DNA of 34,272 nt from an uncultured Candidatus Saccharibacteria bacterium (GTDB lineage Bacteria; Patescibacteriota; Saccharimonadia; Saccharimonadales; Saccharimonadaceae): contig CALXTC010000012.1 in the NCBI GenBank assembly GCA_944391325.1, positions 1 to 34,272 on the forward strand. Reading direction: 5' to 3'. This document shows, piece by piece, positions 9,946 to 34,272 of the stretch. The notes below the pieces were generated by a model that worked only from the letters and a program-made list of their open reading frames with translations, made no database searches and was not told where the DNA came from. The number at the start of each line of letters is the position of its first letter. Within the stretch, counting starts at the first letter, position 1. A program made the translations under genes and the position numbers.

Positions 9946-11436
9946 ATGATTGCACGGGTGGATACGGCCGTCGTTAACGGCTTTGACGGTGTTTTGGTGA
10001 CGGCCGAATGCGACATTACCAAGGGTTTGCCGTCATTCAATATCGTCGGACTAGCCAGCAAAGCCATTGCCGAGTCCCGCGAGCGCGTTCGATCGGCTAT
10101 TGTCAATTCCGGGTTTACCTTCCCTGCAAAACGAATTACCATCAACTTGACACCGGCCAATATCGCTAAGGAAGGGTCACATCTAGACCTGGCCATCGCC
10201 CTGTCAATTTTGGTTGCTAGTAGGCAATTACCACAACACCTAACAGATGATGTTCTTGCAATTGGCGAGCTAGGATTAAACGGTGAACTGCACCCCGTTA
10301 ACGGCGTGCTAAACTTTGCTGAATGCGGGGCTAAAACTAGCCACCACACGATTATCGTTCCAGCACAGAATGCCAACCAGGCTGCCCTGCTCGACGATAT
10401 TATCGTTGTCGGTACCACAACCTTTGACAGTGTATGTAGGCATTTATTAAACGAACAAATTATTGCTCCGACAAAATATACCGTTGTAAATGATACTTAC
10501 TCACCCACCGTTACAATCGACGACATCCGAGGCCAAACCATGGCAAAACGCGCCCTAGAAATCGCCGCCGCAGGACATCACAATATTCTATTCACAGGGC
10601 CACCAGGATCCGGCAAAACGATGCTAGCCAAGGCTCTGCCAAGTCTATTACCTGCAATGACTCGGTCGGAAGTTCTAGAAACAACCAAGATTTACGCCCT
10701 GGCTGGCAATAACGGCCAAATCATTACCACTCGACCCTTCCGTTCACCACATCACACAGCGTCATATGTGGCTATGGTTGGCGGTGGAACGACGATCGTG
10801 CCAGGCGAAATCTCTCTGGCCCACAATGGCGTGCTATTCCTAGATGAGACAGCCGAGTTTTCTAAAAGGACACTGGAGGCTCTGCGACAACCATTAGAGG
10901 ATCGCATCATCAGCATTAGCCGAGCCGGAGCCAAGGCCACCTACCCGGCCAATTTTATGCTAGTTGCCACCATGAATCCCTGTCCCTGTGGTTATTATGG
11001 CGACCCTGAGCATGAGTGCGAATGCACTACTCAAATGATACAGAATTACCAAAAGAAGTTGTCTGGGCCGTTGCTAGATCGTATCGATTTATTTGTCCAT
11101 GTGGCTCGAGTGCCACGTCATGAACTAACGGCGCCAACCCACACAGACACTACCGACACCAACAATTGGCGACAAGCAATTAGCCACGCACGTCAGACCG
11201 CCGTATCGCGACAAGGTTACGCTAATGCCGGCTTAACCAGCCGACAACTACAGAAAACTAACTCTTTTAGTCCAGAGGCAAAACAACTGCTAGATATCGC
11301 CTCGGACAAGCTAAAACTATCAGCCCGTAGTTATTTTAAGGTCATGCGAGTCGCCATTACTATCGCGGACTTGGAACAATCCGATATCGTTAAGTCTAAT
11401 CACGTGGCCGAAGCCCTGCAATTTCGACATCAATAG
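9946..11436 (+). CDS. comM: ComM/YifB-family Mg-chelatase-like AAA+ ATPase
   Basis: 496 aa, the usual size for YifB/ComM. In naturally competent bacteria ComM is a hexameric helicase that promotes branch migration during integration of incoming DNA. The N-terminal ChlI-like domain (residues 1-170, with GLPSFNIVGLASKAIAESRE and the NLTPANIAKEGSHLDLAIA block) is followed by the AAA+ core: Walker A GPPGSGKT at about 218 and Walker B VLFLDE at about 296. The family Cys cluster CPCGYYGDPEHECEC lies at about 347-361. A C-terminal Mg-chelatase helical domain contains the family motif SARSYFKVMRVAITIADLE. A leaderless start is inferred from the -10 box. It stands alone between tmRNA and the RCC1 gene. 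With the type IV pilus genes in this window it fits a DNA-uptake capacity (inference). Confidence 0.93.
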   Translation: MIARVDTAVVNGFDGVLVTAECDITKGLPSFNIVGLASKAIAESRERVRSAIVNSGFTFPAKRITINLTPANIAKEGSHLDLAIALSILVASRQLPQHLTDDVLAIGELGLNGELHPVNGVLNFAECGAKTSHHTIIVPAQNANQAALLDDIIVVGTTTFDSVCRHLLNEQIIAPTKYTVVNDTYSPTVTIDDIRGQTMAKRALEIAAAGHHNILFTGPPGSGKTMLAKALPSLLPAMTRSEVLETTKIYALAGNNGQIITTRPFRSPHHTASYVAMVGGGTTIVPGEISLAHNGVLFLDETAEFSKRTLEALRQPLEDRIISISRAGAKATYPANFMLVATMNPCPCGYYGDPEHECECTTQMIQNYQKKLSGPLLDRIDLFVHVARVPRHELTAPTHTDTTDTNNWRQAISHARQTAVSRQGYANAGLTSRQLQKTNSFSPEAKQLLDIASDKLKLSARSYFKVMRVAITIADLEQSDIVKSNHVAEALQFRHQ

Positions 11437-11496: not shown

Positions 11497-12885
11497 CTAG
11501 TTGCGATAATACCTAAACTTAGCAGCTGGATTGCCAGAATCATCCAGCCCAACCAGGTTTCCACTACTCGTTTGACCCAGTATCGCATACTCGGCGGAAC
11601 CGCCAGCCGATATATTATTTAGCGTAGTATTACTAGCAGCCGTTGGTATTGCGCAATAGATACGAGTAGATGTCCGACGCGATTCACTATCGGCACTGAC
11701 GACACACATCTCATCGCTGTCGGGCTGTTTATCCCCGTCAATATCTATAAATACGCTCATATCCAGTGGCATATTAGCACCCATAATTGTCGCCTGCTGG
11801 TAATTGATATCGCCAGTTATATTATTGCCATCAGCATCTGGCGTACCGCCATTACCCCACGAATACACCGACCCATCTGTACCAATGGCAAACAAGGCCT
11901 CGCCAGAGGCAAAGACAGATTCAAATTTATTGTCGTAATTGCTACCTAGGTGGACTGGACCACGCTTAGCATAATAAGTAATATCGCTGCAGTTTGTCGC
12001 ATCTTGAATAGCATACCTATACCTATCACAGATATTATACTCATCGCCAGTGTCGCCAGCTATACCCAATACTCCGTTCTGATTATCACCCCAAGTAAAC
12101 ACCCGACCATCATTCGCAATCGCAACAACCTTATGAAAACCAACAGCAAGATCCTTGATGCCCTGCCCAATTATCTCATTCGCTTTGGACGGGCGTGGTG
12201 TTTCGATCTGCTCAGCAGTATCATAGTCGTCACGATAAACGGCATTCACAGGTTGAGGGTTCCAAACAATCACTGTCGTGCTCTGGTCTGGAATAATCTC
12301 CTCACCAAAGCCTAGGTTGCCATAATCATTCTGACCCCAGGCATACAGTTGACCATCATTCGTTCTGGCAAACGAGCCATTACTACTAGTTTCCACCTGA
12401 ACAACACCCTGTCCACGCAAAGATGTAATCTCGACTGGTGTATTAGAATCGTCAGTACCACCAACGCCTAACTGGCCATTCGAATTAAGACCCCAGCTAT
12501 ACACATAGCCCCGATCCGTCAGCACTAGCACGTGTGAATCAGTCGCTAAGTCGACAATATTGCCATTAAACGCAAAATTAACCACTTCCGGCAAGGTGTG
12601 TTGTCCGCCGGTCACGCCCAACCCCAATTGGCCGTGATGATTAAGACCCCAAGCATATAAGGTGCCGTCATTGGCTATGGCAAAGGCCTGTCGCCAGCCA
12701 GCATAGATTTTTATTATCTTGCGCCCAGCTGGCAGATTAAAATTATCTGTAATATCCGTTGGAATACTCACAGCCACCGACGTATCCTTGTCTTCGGTGC
12801 TAGCATCAGGGTTACTACATTCACCTTGGTTGCCATTGCCAAGTTGAGCGCAGTTATTAGCCCCCCCAACTGTAGACTCTACCAC
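11497..12885 (-). CDS. C-terminal part of secreted RCC1-repeat protein (frameshifted)
   Basis: This frame carries most of an RCC1-type beta-propeller: blades with YAWG..HHGQLGLG, YSWG..SNGQLGVG, YAWG..DYGNLGFG, FTWG..QNGVLGIAG and YSWG, then a tail ending LVGLDDSGNPAAKFRYYRN. It opens at about 12885 without a Shine-Dalgarno and its first real homology is ANNCAQLGNG, which continues the blade that stops abruptly in the upstream frame (VYSWGG, stop at 12857). It is therefore not an independent gene but the second half of the gene at 12857-14131, separated by one extra G in a G7 run (12861-12867). Correcting one base gives a single 877-residue protein with seven blades. RCC1 propellers bind proteins or DNA; here the protein is exported, so an adhesive role on the cell surface is inferred. 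Confidence 0.75.
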   Translation of the reverse strand: MVESTVGGANNCAQLGNGNQGECSNPDASTEDKDTSVAVSIPTDITDNFNLPAGRKIIKIYAGWRQAFAIANDGTLYAWGLNHHGQLGLGVTGGQHTLPEVVNFAFNGNIVDLATDSHVLVLTDRGYVYSWGLNSNGQLGVGGTDDSNTPVEITSLRGQGVVQVETSSNGSFARTNDGQLYAWGQNDYGNLGFGEEIIPDQSTTVIVWNPQPVNAVYRDDYDTAEQIETPRPSKANEIIGQGIKDLAVGFHKVVAIANDGRVFTWGDNQNGVLGIAGDTGDEYNICDRYRYAIQDATNCSDITYYAKRGPVHLGSNYDNKFESVFASGEALFAIGTDGSVYSWGNGGTPDADGNNITGDINYQQATIMGANMPLDMSVFIDIDGDKQPDSDEMCVVSADSESRRTSTRIYCAIPTAASNTTLNNISAGGSAEYAILGQTSSGNLVGLDDSGNPAAKFRYYRN

Positions 12886-14131
12886 TATCCGTCAGTGCTA
12901 AACTATAATTTCCACCAGCCGACACACTAACCACCTTGCCGTCAAAGCGTGATGTGATGTTGTATATTCCACCATCATTGCTAGTGTCCCCAATTCCTAA
13001 CTGTCCATGATCATTATTGGTTGTAGTGGTGAAAACCTGTCCCGATTGCGTCAAAATAATCCGATGCGAGCTACCGCCAGCCATCTCAATTGGGCGATCA
13101 TCATCATCCAGATTAAAGGTACTTGGCGACACACCAGCTATGGCCATCTGGCGAGTATAGGTGAATGCTCCTCTTAATTGCGCATACTGGTGTTCGCCTA
13201 CGCCATTGTTGTTATCCACCCAAACATCGAACTTAATCTCCTGATCAGCCGCCACAATTGACTCATCTAAATTATTCGGAAAGTCCACTACCAATTGGCC
13301 GTATTCCTGGCTGATTATCTCGCCAATTATGGCGTCAGGCGCCTCGCAGCCTGTCGACGAGCTATCAGTAGGCGTCAAGCAGACTTGGCTGGCTGTAATC
13401 AAGTTAGAACCGGCAATGACAACCTCGGCAGGCACTGTCTCATCGCCAAGATTATAGGCGTTTGGCGTGATGCCGTCTAGCCTAGCCGGTTCAATTGGGT
13501 TAGCCGTCGCCGTGTATACTATTTCCGCCACATAATCACCAGCCAGCATCATTGTTTCAGCACCACGCACCCCAAACCACACCTCGTAATTATTGTTACC
13601 TGGCGCAGAGGTCGCCCCAATAATATCTGTCGTTTTATCCAACGGCAAGCCAGCCCATAGCGAACTTGTAGCTGGATTTGCCTCATATGCCTGATCAAAG
13701 CCACCCAGCCCAGGTACAGCATAACCCCATGTCCCTGAGATTAATGCCAACGGCGACTGTTGCGTAGCCCCAAGCAGTGGTGCTATCGATGCACCACGGT
13801 CATTAACCAAACTGCCAGCCGTATATGGCGATTCACCAGATCGATCAACCACCGAAATAGTCACGTTATATCCATACGGTGCCTCGTCTTGGCCAAAATT
13901 GACGCCAACCGTCTGCTGACCAGCCACCAGCTTGTTTGAATCAAAGGTTAATTGCAGATTAGTTGGAGAAACGGTGATCGAGGCCGCTTCGACTGGTCTA
14001 GGCGAAACAAAAGTTAACAAAGCAGGCACCATCACAAATGTTGCCCATAAAACTCTTTCAACAGCCTTTATCGCCCTCACCGTTATGCAGGTTGAGACAC
14101 AGTATCCCCTACCCCAGAATCCTTTCTGCAC
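12857..14131 (-). CDS. N-terminal part of secreted RCC1-repeat protein (frameshifted)
   Basis: N-terminal half of the split beta-propeller gene. The first 50 residues form a signal peptide (basic RAIKAVERV, hydrophobic LWATFVMVPALLTFV, then PRPVEAASI, a likely signal peptidase I site after VEA). Residues about 55-230 are a Thr/Val-rich beta-sandwich-like region, and about 235-345 resemble an IPT/TIG-like fold (GITPNAYNLG...VVIAGSNLITAS). Two RCC1 blades follow, up to SGRVYSWGG, before a stop created by the G7 run. A GTG at 14131 lies 9 bases after TATAAC, matching the leaderless style here; the GTG at 14081 (VRAIKAV) is the alternative start. The pattern of signal peptide, adhesin-like domains and propeller suggests a cell-surface protein, possibly for host contact in an episymbiont (inference). 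Confidence 0.75.
   Translation of the reverse strand: MQKGFWGRGYCVSTCITVRAIKAVERVLWATFVMVPALLTFVSPRPVEAASITVSPTNLQLTFDSNKLVAGQQTVGVNFGQDEAPYGYNVTISVVDRSGESPYTAGSLVNDRGASIAPLLGATQQSPLALISGTWGYAVPGLGGFDQAYEANPATSSLWAGLPLDKTTDIIGATSAPGNNNYEVWFGVRGAETMMLAGDYVAEIVYTATANPIEPARLDGITPNAYNLGDETVPAEVVIAGSNLITASQVCLTPTDSSSTGCEAPDAIIGEIISQEYGQLVVDFPNNLDESIVAADQEIKFDVWVDNNNGVGEHQYAQLRGAFTYTRQMAIAGVSPSTFNLDDDDRPIEMAGGSSHRIILTQSGQVFTTTTNNDHGQLGIGDTSNDGGIYNITSRFDGKVVSVSAGGNYSLALTDSGRVYSWGG
12861..12867 (-). repeat. G7 homopolymer that splits the RCC1 gene
   Basis: Seven Gs on the coding strand lie exactly at the frame break; six would restore a continuous 878-codon frame. This may be a contingency (phase-variation) tract or a homopolymer sequencing error. 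Confidence 0.8.
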
Positions 14132-14298: not shown

Positions 14299-14373
14299 TC
14301 CGGAGTAGCGCAGCGGTAGCGCAGTTGGCTGTTAACCAATTGGTCGCCGGTTCGAATCCGGCCTCCGGAGCCA
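14299..14373 (+). tRNA. tRNA-Asn (GTT)
   Basis: Acceptor TCCGGAG/CTCCGGA, D arm with AGCGGT, anticodon loop CTGTTAACC (GTT), T arm GGTTCGAATCC and an encoded CCA at 14371-14373. It is 32 bases upstream of the probable infC start and shares its promoter, so processing of its 3' end would set the 5' end of the infC mRNA. Confidence 0.95.
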
Positions 14374-14405: not shown

Positions 14406-14948
14406 ATAGCCAATCATTCAATTCGGATTAACGGCCAGATCCGCGCCGATGAGTTACGCGTTATCGATGAAAGTGGCGCCCAGTTGGGAGTTATGTCCCG
14501 CAAGGAAGCCCTCGATAAGGCCCGCGACGCTGGACTGGACCTAGTAGAAATTTCACCGACTGCAACGCCACCTGTTGCCAAAATCGTTGACTGGGGCAAA
14601 TACCAGTATCAAAAGATGAAGGAACAACAGCGTAACAAAAAGAATGCACGCAGTAGCGAAATTAAACAGATGCGTCTAGGCCTAAAAATTGGTCAAAACG
14701 ATTTGAACATCAAACTACGTAAAATCCGTAAGTTCTTATTAGACGGCGACAAGGTAAAAATCCAGATTATCTTTCGCGGTCGAGAAATGGCGCATCCTGA
14801 GGTTGGGCAAGATTTACTAGGTCGGATACTTGACCAATTATCTGATGTAGCCATTGCCGACAACAAGCCGACAATGGCGGGTCGCAACCTGAATATCATC
14901 ATAAGGAGTAACCCAAATGCCAAAGCTAAAGACCCACAAGGGGACTAG
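14406..14948 (+). CDS. infC: Translation initiation factor IF-3, non-canonical start codon
   Basis: IF-3 binds the 30S subunit, blocks premature 50S joining and monitors the start codon and initiator tRNA. The N-domain (INGQIRADELRVIDESGAQLG, then DLVEISPTATPPVAKIVDWG), the Lys-rich linker (KYQYQKMKEQQRNKKNA) and the C-domain (IKQMRLGLKIGQNDLNIKLR, VKIQIIFRGREMAHPE) are all present. The conserved N-domain begins before the first ATG/GTG/TTG in frame (TTG 14484). An in-frame TAA at 14376-14378 limits the upstream end, and no ATG, GTG or TTG lies between. GAGG at 14395-14398 is 7 bases from an ATA at 14406, giving a protein of 180 aa beginning at ATA; ATT at 14421 is the alternative. E. coli infC starts at AUU for autoregulation, so a parallel use here is likely. 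The 3' end overlaps rpmI by 32 bases. Confidence 0.9.
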   Translation: MANHSIRINGQIRADELRVIDESGAQLGVMSRKEALDKARDAGLDLVEISPTATPPVAKIVDWGKYQYQKMKEQQRNKKNARSSEIKQMRLGLKIGQNDLNIKLRKIRKFLLDGDKVKIQIIFRGREMAHPEVGQDLLGRILDQLSDVAIADNKPTMAGRNLNIIIRSNPNAKAKDPQGD

Positions 14949-17399: not shown

Positions 17400-17407
17400 A
17401 GAGACAT

Positions 17408-17995
17408 ATGAACGGCATGGATGAGTACTCCAAAGATATTGTCTTCGGAATATTGGCCACAATCATAGGGATTATTTGCGTAATAGCTCTGCTAAATGCA
17501 CATTCATTTGGCCCCCTTTTAGCCATAGCAGTACTTATATTTACACCGTTGTTCTCTCTTTATGTAATAATAGGGCCAATAGAGACAATCGTAGCAATAT
17601 ATCGAAAAATAATGCACAGCAGAAAACAGACAAACAAATCCCCATGGAGTGCCCATGAGGCAGATATCGATAACGATATGTCAACCAACAAGCCTAACTC
17701 TTTAGCTTTTTCCTCAAATCGCTCATCAGCTTCTAACACTATTAAGGACAAAACCGCCAGAAACCATACAGATAATTTATCGTACAGCAACAAAATAAAT
17801 TCAAAAACCAATTTAACTCCACCAAGCCCATTTCAAAAAGCCATGGATGATACACAAACAATAGCTATCAATCAACTCGCCACAAAAAGACCATCCAACG
17901 GGCACAAAACGTATTCCGCTCAGACGCATCAGCATCATCAAATCACACCCCCCCCATTCCTCAGACGTCCAGTTTTTGCAGAGGCGAGGCGTTAA
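17408..17995 (+). CDS. Membrane protein overlapping the DarT gene
   Basis: I do not recognise a family. The 195-aa product begins with two hydrophobic helices (about residues 12-31, IVFGILATIIGIICVIALL, and 36-60, LLAIAVLIFTPLFSLYVIIG). A basic segment (YRKIMHSRKQ) and about 125 polar residues rich in Ser, Asn, Thr, Lys and His follow, probably a cytoplasmic disordered tail. It is the first gene of the toxin-antitoxin unit. Its last 20 bases overlap the darT-like gene in another frame, and an eight-C run (17948-17955) lies near its end. Loss of one C would join it in frame to the toxin as a 374-residue membrane-anchored protein. Whether it anchors the toxin, is the N-terminal part of it or is an unrelated neighbour cannot be decided here. 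Confidence 0.65.
   Translation: MNGMDEYSKDIVFGILATIIGIICVIALLNAHSFGPLLAIAVLIFTPLFSLYVIIGPIETIVAIYRKIMHSRKQTNKSPWSAHEADIDNDMSTNKPNSLAFSSNRSSASNTIKDKTARNHTDNLSYSNKINSKTNLTPPSPFQKAMDDTQTIAINQLATKRPSNGHKTYSAQTHQHHQITPPPFLRRPVFAEARR
17948..17955 (+). repeat. C8 homopolymer at the membrane-protein/toxin junction
   Basis: Eight Cs within the last codons of the membrane-protein gene. Removing one C shifts translation into the toxin frame, which is open here without a start codon back to about 17865. The bridging residues would be HSSDVQFLQRRGVKYLYHF. Confidence 0.8.
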
Positions 17996-18533
17996 ATATC
18001 TATATCATTTCACATGCGTTGGAAACCTGTCGTCAATTCTAAGAAATGGCATCTTATCCGTTAATCAACTAAAGACTAAGGGGATTAGGTACTATTACAA
18101 TGACCCAGAAAGGTATGATGGCAATCTCAACGCCATTAGCGTATCAGTTAGTTTTCCAAACAATAAATTATTTTGCAAGTTTCGTGAGGTAGATTGGCGA
18201 AGCAACCATAGATGGGCAGTCTTAGAAATGCCAGTGACCATTCTAGATAGATTACAGTATAAGTGTTACGCACACAATGCAGCACGTTATGATACGCCGA
18301 GCTGCAGCATAGAAGACATGTTTGGCGCTAGTAACGATGAATATCCAGAGGATGTACAAGCCGAGATAATGATAGAGAGTGCAATCCCTGTCTCTGCCAT
18401 AGAGTGTATATATGTAGACTATCCATACGGCCCAAGCGCAGATGTTCGCAACATCGTCGACGACTCTGGGTTAAATATCCCCGTAGTTAAATCACACAAG
18501 TTTTTCACAGTAAGAAGAGATAAGGATAAATAA
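17976..18533 (+). CDS. DarT-family (DarT1-like) DNA ADP-ribosyltransferase toxin
   Basis: DarT toxins use NAD+ to attach ADP-ribose to bases in single-stranded DNA and so block replication; DarT1 members modify guanine. The 185-aa product has the family features: RGVKYLYHFTCVGNLSSIL with the NAD-binding His (H11), a DPERYDGNLNAISVSVSFPN block with Arg (R46), which corresponds to the conserved ADP-ribosylation loop region, and VQAEIMIESAIP with the catalytic Glu (E130). The only start in frame is TTG 17976, without a Shine-Dalgarno, inside the end of the upstream gene. Family members usually have several residues before RG.KYL, and the frame codes such residues (SDVQFLQ) upstream of the TTG, so translation may instead enter by coupling or slippage at the C8 run. 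The antitoxin gene begins one base after its stop. Confidence 0.85.
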   Translation: MQRRGVKYLYHFTCVGNLSSILRNGILSVNQLKTKGIRYYYNDPERYDGNLNAISVSVSFPNNKLFCKFREVDWRSNHRWAVLEMPVTILDRLQYKCYAHNAARYDTPSCSIEDMFGASNDEYPEDVQAEIMIESAIPVSAIECIYVDYPYGPSADVRNIVDDSGLNIPVVKSHKFFTVRRDKDK

Positions 18534-18534
18534 C

Positions 18535-19260
18535 ATGTCATCAAGCACAACAATCATTACTCAGCGTTTGGCTTTTATGACTAATGATAGCGCCTATTAC
18601 ATTGAAGAGCCCATCGCATTCACATGGCACATGGGCATGTCGTGGCAAGTCAGACAGCGTTCGTCACAATCTCTTAGAGAAGAGATATTAAATAAATACC
18701 CTAGCCGTAAAGCAATCGAAATATCGACAGCCTCAGATAATTATGAATTGGGCAAACAGCTTAGCGCATTAAACTTAACATTTGACGGCATCCCCGTAGA
18801 AAACATTTTTCAAGGCTCCAAAATTTACAGTGGCGAAAACGAGCCACACGTGGAGCTATTCAGCCAAAGTGCCAAAGACGCTAAACGATTCTCTAAAGAA
18901 ATGCAAGCTCTAAAGCACACTGTCACTGGATTTAAATACAATGGCAAAACTTTTGACACATTTCCCTATTCTTCTTTTTACGATTGGATATACATCAATG
19001 CTCTACATCAACACCCTGAGCTAGCACGTAATATCTTAGACTATGATACTTTTACAGATATTCATTTTAATCAGAAGGTTGCCTATAGTAATAAAGGGCC
19101 CTTCAATTGCCAAGCTCGCGCGCTAGCCATTTATGTTAGCCTAGTCAAGCGAAAGACGCTAGAAGAATATTTGCAAGATCCAGAGCGGCTTAGGCATGCT
19201 ATTTACAAAGAACTGTACAAGACCCACGAGCCTGAACACACGCAGCTCTCTTTAATGTAA
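18535..19260 (+). CDS. NADAR-type antitoxin paired with DarT
   Basis: A 241-aa protein that I match from memory to the DarT1-associated NADAR antitoxin family: FTWHMGMSWQVRQRSSQSLR, then KAIEISTASDNYELGKQLSAL, the NADAR block VENIFQGSKIYSG, and the C-terminal FYDWIYINALHQHPELA with FNCQARALAIYVSLVKR. NADAR proteins hydrolyse ADP-ribose from guanine bases, reversing DarT1. The ATG is one base after the toxin stop, preceded by AAGGAT, so the two are co-translated; this is the order expected of a toxin-antitoxin pair. Base composition (AT-richer, more Lys and Asn) differs somewhat from neighbouring housekeeping genes, in keeping with acquisition by transfer (inference). Confidence 0.8.
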   Translation: MSSSTTIITQRLAFMTNDSAYYIEEPIAFTWHMGMSWQVRQRSSQSLREEILNKYPSRKAIEISTASDNYELGKQLSALNLTFDGIPVENIFQGSKIYSGENEPHVELFSQSAKDAKRFSKEMQALKHTVTGFKYNGKTFDTFPYSSFYDWIYINALHQHPELARNILDYDTFTDIHFNQKVAYSNKGPFNCQARALAIYVSLVKRKTLEEYLQDPERLRHAIYKELYKTHEPEHTQLSLM

Positions 19261-31400: not shown

Positions 31401-32687
31401 TTAATAATCACAATTGTCGACACCGTTGTCATAGAAAACATTGATGTCTTTACACACCTTGCCCTCTGTCTCAATAGCATACTCTGGCCACCAGCTAGCA
31501 TCCTCGTCCGAATAGGTTGGTTCTAGATTAGCCTGGATGCGGGCGAAGGCGTCGGCCGAATTACCCGTTACATCAACAACTGGTTGAACTCCGTCAAAGT
31601 ATAACAATTCGTCACCACGGTAGGCAGCAATTGAGAAATGCGTATTCTTGTAAATAGCATTCAATCGCATATAGTAATCATTGCCTACTACGTCAAATTG
31701 GCCCTGACCACCACCTGGCGTTATGCTAACAACACAGGCATAGTTTTGGCCAGCACCGTTTGTGCACTTGGCGGCAACGATCGGAGCACCAGACCCGCCA
31801 TATTGATCATTAGGAGCATCGTCATTTCCATCATAGTTATTGTGTCGTGGGTGATAGTCCATAATTGGTACTGGGTTAGCACCTAGAGCCCCACCAGAAC
31901 CACTCGATGACGGACGCAGCGTAATCGCTGAATCGTTAGCAATTAAGTCATTAATACTGACGCCGCTTTTAGATGCGCCAACTATCTCTGCTCGCACGAT
32001 AGCCGGTCGATTGGCGCCATTGTTCCAAGCCGACTGAGAAACCAGACCTGTAACATTCCCATCTGGCACACCAGAAGCAATCTGATCACCACCCTCGCCA
32101 ACAATATTACGATGCCAACTGATCTCAATCCTGGTTGGATTAGCAGTATTACCGCTGGCATCCACCAATCTTAGTGGAACTACCACTGAGTTACCATCAG
32201 CATTAACTACACCCTGATAAGCCGTGGTCATAGTGGCAATCTTTAGACACTGATAGTATTCATCGTTGGCTTCCTCGCCGCCGATTCTGGCCCGATAGTC
32301 ACCATTATCATCCGTTTCAATAGCAAAGTTATCACCAATTGATGAGCCGTCAACTGCCCCTAAAATGTCTTGACAGCCAAGGTCATCTAGCTTGTGACCG
32401 ATTACTTTAGAACAGACGGCGGTTGCCTCTGATGATGCATAGCTGCCATCAGCCTGTCGTTGACTATAGCAATAAACTAGCAGACGTTTGGCGTCCTCGA
32501 CGCCCGATTCAGCGGCCGTCTTGGCGGTGGATTGCAAAGTTTCATTAGTGGATTGTCGGGTGGTCGAAACAACAATGTAGGTAAAACTAACTGCCACTAC
32601 GGCGAACAACATCATAAACATAGCCACGGTTACCATTGACGCCTGGCCTCGTTCACTACTGACTATTTGCCTACCCCACTTACTCAT
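31401..32687 (-). CDS. PilX-like pilus protein (last gene of prepilin operon)
   Basis: A 428-aa protein. The N-terminus (SSERGQASMVTVAMFMMLFAVVAVSFTYIVV) has a single hydrophobic helix after an ERGQAS motif, similar to PilX-type or non-canonical prepilins in which the consensus Phe/Glu is replaced. The exterior is large, Cys-containing and rich in Asp/Asn/Gly, with paired cysteines such as CYSQRQ...AVCSKVIG...GCQ, so it is probably a disulfide-stabilised surface subunit or minor pilin tip protein. Its start overlaps the preceding gene by four bases (ATGA) with AGGAG upstream. It is followed by the bidirectional terminator. It lacks a textbook N-methylation site, so processing is uncertain. 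Confidence 0.75.
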   Translation of the reverse strand: MSKWGRQIVSSERGQASMVTVAMFMMLFAVVAVSFTYIVVSTTRQSTNETLQSTAKTAAESGVEDAKRLLVYCYSQRQADGSYASSEATAVCSKVIGHKLDDLGCQDILGAVDGSSIGDNFAIETDDNGDYRARIGGEEANDEYYQCLKIATMTTAYQGVVNADGNSVVVPLRLVDASGNTANPTRIEISWHRNIVGEGGDQIASGVPDGNVTGLVSQSAWNNGANRPAIVRAEIVGASKSGVSINDLIANDSAITLRPSSSGSGGALGANPVPIMDYHPRHNNYDGNDDAPNDQYGGSGAPIVAAKCTNGAGQNYACVVSITPGGGQGQFDVVGNDYYMRLNAIYKNTHFSIAAYRGDELLYFDGVQPVVDVTGNSADAFARIQANLEPTYSDEDASWWPEYAIETEGKVCKDINVFYDNGVDNCDY

Positions 32688-33430
32688 CGCTGTCGACTCC
32701 TTTCATACACAGTAATATTATACTCGGCAAATGAACAATATTGATTACCGCCTGGTTCAAAATGGTCGTCATTGTCAACAACGCCATTGTTATTATCGTC
32801 ATACCAATCACCGCATTGCCAACGACTATCAGTGCGATCGCCATTAGCGTCGATCTTAGTCTGACCGTCCTGCTCATAGGCGCGGATTGGGCGATTGGAT
32901 CCCTCGGTCGATATTACAGTATTAAGGGTAAGTAGCGGAATATCTTGGTCGTCGTCAACACCCTGAGTAACATTAAACTCCTGGATTGTCGCCCCGCGAC
33001 TAAGCAGCACTCTCGTTCCATCATCATTGGCCGGTGGCATTTTGCTTGGGTTGCTGCAATATTCTGCGTTTGGATCATCAATTCTGGCTAAACTGAATAC
33101 TTGACCGTTATTAAGCCGATTTAGATTAGCCACATTTTTATCAATATCGGCCTCGGTGTTCCACAGATAACTAACACCACCCACACATAGTCGGCGATTG
33201 TTTTTATCCACCATGGCGGCTGTGCTATAGCGCACCTTTTCGCCGATATCCATATTCAGTTGCTGGCCAGCCAGATTAATCCTGGACAACCAAACGCCAC
33301 GATTATACGACCGGATAATATTAACCGTTACTGCAGCTAGAATAAAAATAATAAAGGCAACAAAAATCATCGCCATAGTCACCTCAATAAGTGTAAACCC
33401 ACGTTGTCTATCGCTATGATGCCGATCCAT
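32684..33430 (-). CDS. PilW-like type IV prepilin
   Basis: A 248-aa protein with a clear type III signal: basic leader MDRHHSDRQRG, cleavage before FTLIEVTMAMIFVAF (Phe+1, Glu+5) and a continuous hydrophobic helix. The globular part is rich in Asp/Asn and contains DGDRTDSRWQCGDWYDDNNN and an Asp-Asn-Asn repeat that resembles calcium-binding loops. It is probably a minor pilin. The start forms a TAATG overlap with the upstream gene and has GGAGG. It is part of an operon of at least four genes; PilW is the closest size match. Confidence 0.85.
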   Translation of the reverse strand: MDRHHSDRQRGFTLIEVTMAMIFVAFIIFILAAVTVNIIRSYNRGVWLSRINLAGQQLNMDIGEKVRYSTAAMVDKNNRRLCVGGVSYLWNTEADIDKNVANLNRLNNGQVFSLARIDDPNAEYCSNPSKMPPANDDGTRVLLSRGATIQEFNVTQGVDDDQDIPLLTLNTVISTEGSNRPIRAYEQDGQTKIDANGDRTDSRWQCGDWYDDNNNGVVDNDDHFEPGGNQYCSFAEYNITVYERSRQR

Positions 33431-34020
33431 TAGCCATCCTCCCTATAGTAAACACGAACTGTCGACTCTAACCTACCCTGTCCAATTTCTTGAGCTATAC
33501 GCGGTGTCCAACAGGCTCGCACGTAGAAATCGATGTAGCCGGGGACACTACCACTGGGACCGTGCTTGACACCCTCAATCCAAATGCCATCACCGGGGTG
33601 CGGAGCGGCGGCTACGCTGTCGGCTACACTATCAGTAGCATCATATTTTGTAACTGAAATCGGCTCAGTAGCGTCATTGGACATACCCAAATAGAAACCA
33701 CCCGACCCCACAGCGCAACCCCGGCTAGCTATGTTTGACATGCCAGAATCTGTCGAACTTTTAGTCATATCAATAATATCGTTCGCTACCTGGCGATTAA
33801 TGCCAGTCTGAGTGTCAAAAACGTAACGCAACATTTCGACCTGCGAGTTGACCTCGCCACGAGCAGCCGTACGCTCGACTGCATTCATTACCCCGTATAG
33901 ACTACGATTAATTACCGTTAGCGTTGAGGCTAATACTAGCCCCAGCACCGCCATGGCAATAGCAACCTCGACGAGCGTGTCGCCTCGCTGAGATTTGTTG
34001 TTTTTACTGAATTTACCCAT
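33430..34020 (-). CDS. PilV-like type IV prepilin
   Basis: A 196-aa protein. The leader MGKFSKNNKSQRG precedes DTLVEVAIAMAVLGLVLAST, a prepilin helix with Glu at +5; the +1 residue is Asp instead of Phe, which is tolerated in some minor pilins. The remainder includes two Cys and a Gly/Ser/Pro-rich region. The frame extends to a TTG at 34035, but ATG 34020 has GGGAGT upstream and gives the normal short basic leader. It lies between two other pilus-type genes. Confidence 0.83.
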   Translation of the reverse strand: MGKFSKNNKSQRGDTLVEVAIAMAVLGLVLASTLTVINRSLYGVMNAVERTAARGEVNSQVEMLRYVFDTQTGINRQVANDIIDMTKSSTDSGMSNIASRGCAVGSGGFYLGMSNDATEPISVTKYDATDSVADSVAAAPHPGDGIWIEGVKHGPSGSVPGYIDFYVRACWTPRIAQEIGQGRLESTVRVYYREDG

Positions 34021-34025
34021 CCCGT

Positions 34026-34272
34026 TTACTCCCAATTCTTACACGCTTCCTTTAATCGATTCTGCCATCCCGCCACGTTATTAACATAGTCGTTCAGATT
34101 AACATTATTATTGTTTGACACGCCCGCCGAATTATCGCCACCAGCAATACATATCAAACCACCCTGTTGGCCCAACCCACCATTAGCAATGCCTAGGACG
34201 ATCTTGTCCTGCGACGATATGTTAATACTCGATCCCTCGCCAGCATTGTCAACTAGAGTCAATTGTTGCACC
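34026..34272 (-). CDS. C-terminal end of another pilus-type protein (cut by window edge)
   Basis: About 81 residues of an open frame entering from the right edge. It is rich in Asn/Gly/Ser (SSINISSQDKIVLGIANGG, SNNNNVNLNDY) with a Cys pair around the end (ICIAGGD...EACKNWE). No start is visible, as the frame continues beyond the window. It ends 5 bases before the next gene, whose ribosome site lies in the terminal codons. From context it is probably the C-terminus of a pilin or pseudopilin. Confidence 0.6.
   Translation of the reverse strand, partial: VQQLTLVDNAGEGSSINISSQDKIVLGIANGGLGQQGGLICIAGGDNSAGVSNNNNVNLNDYVNNVAGWQNRLKEACKNWE

Follow-up and report, generated by a model that had tools for sequence, protein, structure and literature searches.

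The RCC1-repeat gene that is interrupted at a G7 run in this Saccharibacterial contig is probably a slippage-switched, phase-variable gene for a surface protein, caught in the OFF state, and would belong to a wider poly-G contingency system of the genome. The run is located at 12861-12867 of the window, i.e., the whole stretch of 34,272 nucleotides analysed here, which is contig 12 of a draft genome (27 contigs, 624 kb, 77.8% complete). It reads as G7 on the minus strand (C7 on the plus strand) and forms the boundary between two minus-strand open frames, 14137-12857 and 12891-11497, which overlap at the run and are offset by one base. The 5′ frame terminates at TAA (TAA TAA) immediately past the run, and 3′ of the run 464 more codons are open without a second lesion; with the frames one base apart and the stop right after it, the run is placed where a change of its length would flip expression, as at a contingency locus.

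The RCC1 gene and its frame break

The 5′ half (12857-14131, minus strand) has candidate starts at GTG 14131 or GTG 14080 and a signal-peptide-like N-terminus, followed by an N-terminal all-beta domain (residues about 57-225; 13457-13963, minus strand), a TIG/IPT-like stretch, RCC1 repeat 1 and the beginning of repeat 2. The 3′ half (11497-12891, minus strand) contains the remaining RCC1 propeller, with four significant Pfam RCC1 stretches, and the C-terminus. Pfam searches (RCC1, RCC1_2, WD40_RLD) indicated parts of one RCC1 domain in both halves; PF00415 scored 132.7 bits in the 3′ half and 22.1 bits in the 5′ half, both above the curated cut-off of 21.7, and the PDB structures related to the 3′ half are propellers of the RCC1 type (HERC2, UVR8, RPGR and RCC1). 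The G7 break is positioned within the W-G-x-N motif of repeat 2; since it cuts one closed domain, the two halves, as judged from sequence, encode one secreted protein and represent one gene in two frames. The sequence-only reading had described a single secreted RCC1-propeller gene, split by the G7 run from one frame into two, and this description is confirmed by the overlapping frames one base apart and supported by the RCC1 parts in both halves and the signal-peptide-like N-terminus. Its count of seven blades corresponds to a tally of motifs by eye (about seven in both halves together); the Pfam profile finds five significant ones. The codons TGG GGG of a W-G pair can by themselves create G runs; the remaining seven W-G pairs of the gene are all TGG-GGT.

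The predicted fold of the N-terminal domain is all-beta, with a mean pLDDT of 61.5 and about 80 in the core; a comparison of this fold with the PDB gave no convincing match, Pfam and NCBIfam searches revealed no match to the domain, and no NCBIfam model fits either half of the gene or a paralogue of the set described below. By sequence, the domain is common to secreted proteins of about 200 aa in the family and to at least one poly-G paralogue (contig 8) of the same genome; in G052, G095, G114 and others, it was observed in secreted proteins of about 200 residues arranged in tandem clusters.

The gene is flanked on the left by a comM-like gene (9946-11436, plus strand) and on the right by infC (14484-14948, plus strand), with tRNA-Asn (14299-14373) between the RCC1 gene and infC. 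In a genus-mate, G001, 267 bp separate the comM orthologue from infC, and this interval contains no RCC1 gene. A search for orthologues of the 5′ half came up empty, and neither the 5′ half nor comM led to a useful relative when scanned against GTDB r220.

At 17948-17955 (plus strand), the window contains another G/C run, C8, where ORF 17402-17992 and a DarT toxin frame overlap, and the window's two longest G/C runs are both at frame breaks. This second homopolymer break, also pointed out from the sequence, is real, the frames 17402-17992 and 17865-18530 overlapping there. The region 17402-19260 comprises the ORF, which carries a membrane segment and overlaps the DarT (PF14487) frame at C8, and then a NADAR-DarT1 antitoxin (PF22397); it represents a toxin-antitoxin unit of the phage-defence type, with C8 as a possible switch. 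A cluster of prepilin-like genes (31401-34271, minus strand) is found at the window's end.

Sequencing error and the G/C runs of the genome

A break exactly on a homopolymer, the typical place for such errors, in a 27-contig draft could be a homopolymer sequencing or assembly error, the gene being intact in the organism. When ORFs of the genus-mate G001 were queried against this genome, however, no frame breaks were found in 212 conserved proteins (81,397 aligned residues, about 244 kb of coding sequence), in regions that contain 138 A/T6, 14 A/T7, 117 G/C5 and 3 G/C6 runs and no G/C7, so that error at that length lies outside the measured range; as a control, a one-base deletion was introduced in silico into each of 60 conserved genes, and the test detected it in 54 of them. 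A/T runs of 7-8 are mostly located within intact ORFs. Because of the unbroken conserved proteins and of these A/T runs, indel errors are considered rare in the assembly, and it is unlikely that sequencing error at homopolymers is generally to blame. A population with mixed run lengths would mimic an error, yet would be phase variation itself. For the G7 run, slippage is likelier than sequencing error, which is an improbable explanation, although the least improbable of the alternatives considered here. The sequence-only reading had held a contingency locus and a sequencing error to be both consistent with the data; the evidence now leans to biology, considering the absence of breaks in the conserved coding sequence, the occurrence of poly-G paralogues in both phases, the lack of mismatch repair and the RCC1 tracts in sister genera.

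A count covering 612 kb (98% of the genome) revealed 12 G/C runs of at least seven bases, with lengths of 7 (three runs), 8 (five), 9 (three) and 10 (one). A shuffle of codon order in the coding part predicts about 49, 9, 2.1, 0.4 and 0.08 runs of 6, 7, 8, 9 and 10 bases, versus 14, 3, 5, 3 and 1 observed in the whole genome; there are more runs of 8-10 than predicted (9 against about 2.6) and fewer runs of 6-7 (17 against about 58). The length of G7 alone is not beyond chance, about nine such runs being expected per shuffle; the excess holds for runs of 8-10.

Half of the runs (6 of 12) are located 12 to 20 codons past the ATG of surface-protein paralogues of about 1,000 residues (contigs 3, 7, 8, 19, 22 and 23), which carry a membrane segment; the G7 run sits 424 codons into the RCC1 gene, and in the paralogues the runs sit at the gene start. 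Counting from the ATG, the paralogues on contigs 3 (G8), 7 (G9) and 22 (G8) are open through the run, and those on contigs 8 (G9), 19 (G10) and 23 (G7) stop at the run or at most six codons beyond it; both phases coexist among the paralogues of one assembly. In five of the six, the 40 bases downstream of the run are 88-98% identical (35-39 of 40) with run lengths of 7, 8, 8, 9 and 10; the runs have thus varied in length more quickly than their flanks have diverged.

The leaders of the paralogues hold a repeat element (CCTCCCCT..AGGGGAGG..) that is read in frame, and their C-termini are variable ('RGG..GLF..GFRSVL'). A diversity-generating retroelement was considered for the variable C-termini and rejected, as there was no reverse transcriptase; the PF00078 profile gave no match in this genome (78% complete). 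Further G/C runs are found just upstream of start codons, at the position of the ribosome-binding site (C15:3061-3067, C13:1398-1405 and C19:18426-18434), and might possibly act as switches at the level of translation; one run is located at an ORF start on contig 16.

RCC1 genes, promoter runs and mismatch repair in relatives

In the sister genus represented by G003, C8, C9 and C8 runs are located between -35-like and -10-like boxes upstream of three RCC1 genes, and G7 and G8 runs are found inside two RCC1 genes, in the same W-G motif and in frame; altogether, four G/C runs of at least eight bases are located in or at nine RCC1 genes, versus 0.16-0.23 expected (P 3e-5 to 1e-4). The suggestion that the RCC1 genes of G003 are also frame-broken was rejected, since each of them is an intact ORF of its own. 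G10 and G9 promoter runs precede RCC1/TIG genes in G007, a G9 run is located within the signal-peptide codons of an RCC1 gene in G013, and a G7 run lies directly past the signal peptide of an RCC1 gene in G031, which belongs to another family. The distribution is patchy: most RCC1 ORFs in relatives are run-free, RCC1 genes without any run occur in other genera (e.g., G004, G005, G017, G018 and G021), and the number of G runs of at least eight bases per genome ranges from none to dozens, depending on the genus. The poly-G runs of G001 are mostly intergenic and partly located in hairpin repeats; a long G run alone was therefore not taken as proof of switching.

A search of 295 genomes of the family with the promoter pattern TTGAC-N(1-8)-G7-N(3-16)-TATAAT found 24 sites in 13 genomes for the G version and 7 sites in 4 genomes for the C version (31 sites in both), and the reversed patterns, G and C, gave no matches in the 295 genomes. 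The spacers measure 13-26 bases, most of them 15-20, with runs of 7-14 between the boxes. The genes downstream include those of TIG/RCC1 secreted proteins and of a pilin-like protein; N-terminal hydrophobic segments were predicted in 9 of 17 proteins downstream of promoter runs versus 186 of 728 background ORFs (p = 0.016).

MutS and MutL are both absent from all 41 genomes searched (this genome and 40 relatives of the same genus, family or order), each being found in 11 of the 14 controls; a repair background permissive for slippage, as at contingency loci, is thus present. The ribosomal proteins bL9 and uL30 are also missing from the 41 genomes and are found in 10-13 of the 14 controls. CPR bacteria are not known to carry uL30. 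The lack of L9, MutS and MutL in Saccharibacteria has been reported previously (PMC8406219). By this set of missing genes, the organism is probably a Saccharibacterium.

These observations bear on a plain inactivation of the gene, where a slip in a chance G run would have produced a young pseudogene with no selected switching. A G7 no longer than chance gives is compatible with it; the genus can do without the gene, since G001 has none at this locus, and the loss of MutS and MutL makes such slips likely anywhere. At the sequence level, an OFF phase and a plain knock-out would look alike. However, the frame stays open past the break with no second lesion, the genome as a whole has fewer runs of 6-7 than predicted, as though they were removed where they serve no purpose, and RCC1 genes are repeatedly targeted by G/C runs in sister genera; a pseudogene appears unlikely and ranks behind a sequencing error. 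Very improbable is a programmed frameshift or transcript slippage at GGG-GGC-TAA yielding some full-length protein from the sequenced allele: the GGG run with TAA immediately after it makes a plausible slip site and a tRNA-Gly(CCC) is present in the genome, but the RCC1 relatives are in frame with no need of a shift, and a programmed shift would not call for the two frames seen in the paralogue set. The existence of two separate abutting genes is hardly credible, despite a GTG at 12885 in the 3′ frame, as the cut falls within one RCC1 repeat, neither half alone closes the propeller, and no relative is split at that place; homologues with the halves as separate genes, which had been named in advance as contrary evidence, were not seen, the RCC1 relatives being single open frames.

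The proposed switching and its known counterparts

Under the preferred reading of a phase-variable gene, the product would be a secreted or surface-anchored protein with the N-terminal beta domain, the TIG-like stretch and the RCC1 beta-propeller. Slipped-strand mispairing at G7 during replication would alter the length of the run in living cells, and the slip would persist, uncorrected, without MutS and MutL; the sequenced allele is out of frame, so that translation would end in repeat 2 and no propeller would form (OFF). G7 would belong to a group of G/C runs that act on surface proteins through the reading frame, from positions near the start codon, in signal-peptide codons or inside the propeller; in sister genera, the runs would act through -35/-10 promoter spacing. 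The supposed role is to vary at random the proteins in contact with the bacterial host cell (or with phages). The case for the single G7 is weaker than that for the run set of the genome.

Nanosynbacter lyticus TM7x requires its minor pilin PilX2, whose RCC1 propeller has seven blades, to bind its host normally and to win in competition (PMC12206443). Like PilX2, the window protein appears to be a Saccharibacterial extracellular protein bearing an RCC1 propeller, and a role in host contact can reasonably be suggested by analogy with PilX2, although the N-terminal parts of the two proteins differ. PilX2 is encoded in a pilus locus, whereas the RCC1 gene of the window lies between comM and infC, with tRNA-Asn as a further neighbour; no pilin part was seen in its product, the N-terminal half of which matches a different, all-beta domain.

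Mechanisms of this kind are known from Campylobacter, Neisseria and many other bacteria; the most familiar examples of homopolymer phase variation come from animal-dwelling bacteria, and cases that act through the promoter spacer occur in Neisseria. Homopolymers have been argued to be a general device (PMC2831843), phase variation in Neisseria has been described (PMC5320596, PMC5084427), and a Campylobacter jejuni genome carries 12 to 29 G/C tracts with at least seven bases (PMC4965091). The runs found here are similar to the poly-G/poly-C loci of C. jejuni in their lengths of 7-10, their location in or before surface genes, the apparent frame-based ON/OFF and their number of about a dozen in a small genome; the differences are the lineage, the targets, which look like episymbiont surface proteins, the absence of MutS and MutL, and a switching that is predicted from sequence. 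The runs between the -35 and -10 boxes in sister genera, with the spacers given above, resemble the promoter-spacer variation of Neisseria, from which the window RCC1 gene differs, as its run lies in the coding region. A hypervariable gene with 9-mer repeats has been reported in Gracilibacterium BD1-5 (PMC6851277), where repeats also drive the variation of one gene in a CPR lineage; the variation there concerns the in-frame copy number of the 9-mer, whereas here a homopolymer would switch the frame. With this exception, no report of phase variation in Saccharibacteria or Patescibacteria was found among open-access journal papers. The link between missing mismatch repair and G/C runs at surface genes in Saccharibacteria seems to be new.

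On balance, it is rather probable that Saccharibacteria, which lack MutS and MutL, use a poly-G/C contingency system to turn whole sets of surface and host-contact proteins on and off, through the reading frame and through promoter spacing. The targets would be RCC1 propellers, TIG proteins, large paralogue families and a pilin-like protein, and the system would pre-diversify episymbiont populations for different bacterial hosts or for phage escape. Gene calling in such genomes would then split the switched-off surface genes or drop them as 'pseudogenes'. The loss of mismatch repair in these epibionts, already noted and unexplained, would tie in with such a system, if true, and the system would offer a concrete, testable mechanism for the change or widening of hosts and the avoidance of phages in epibionts that live on bacteria.
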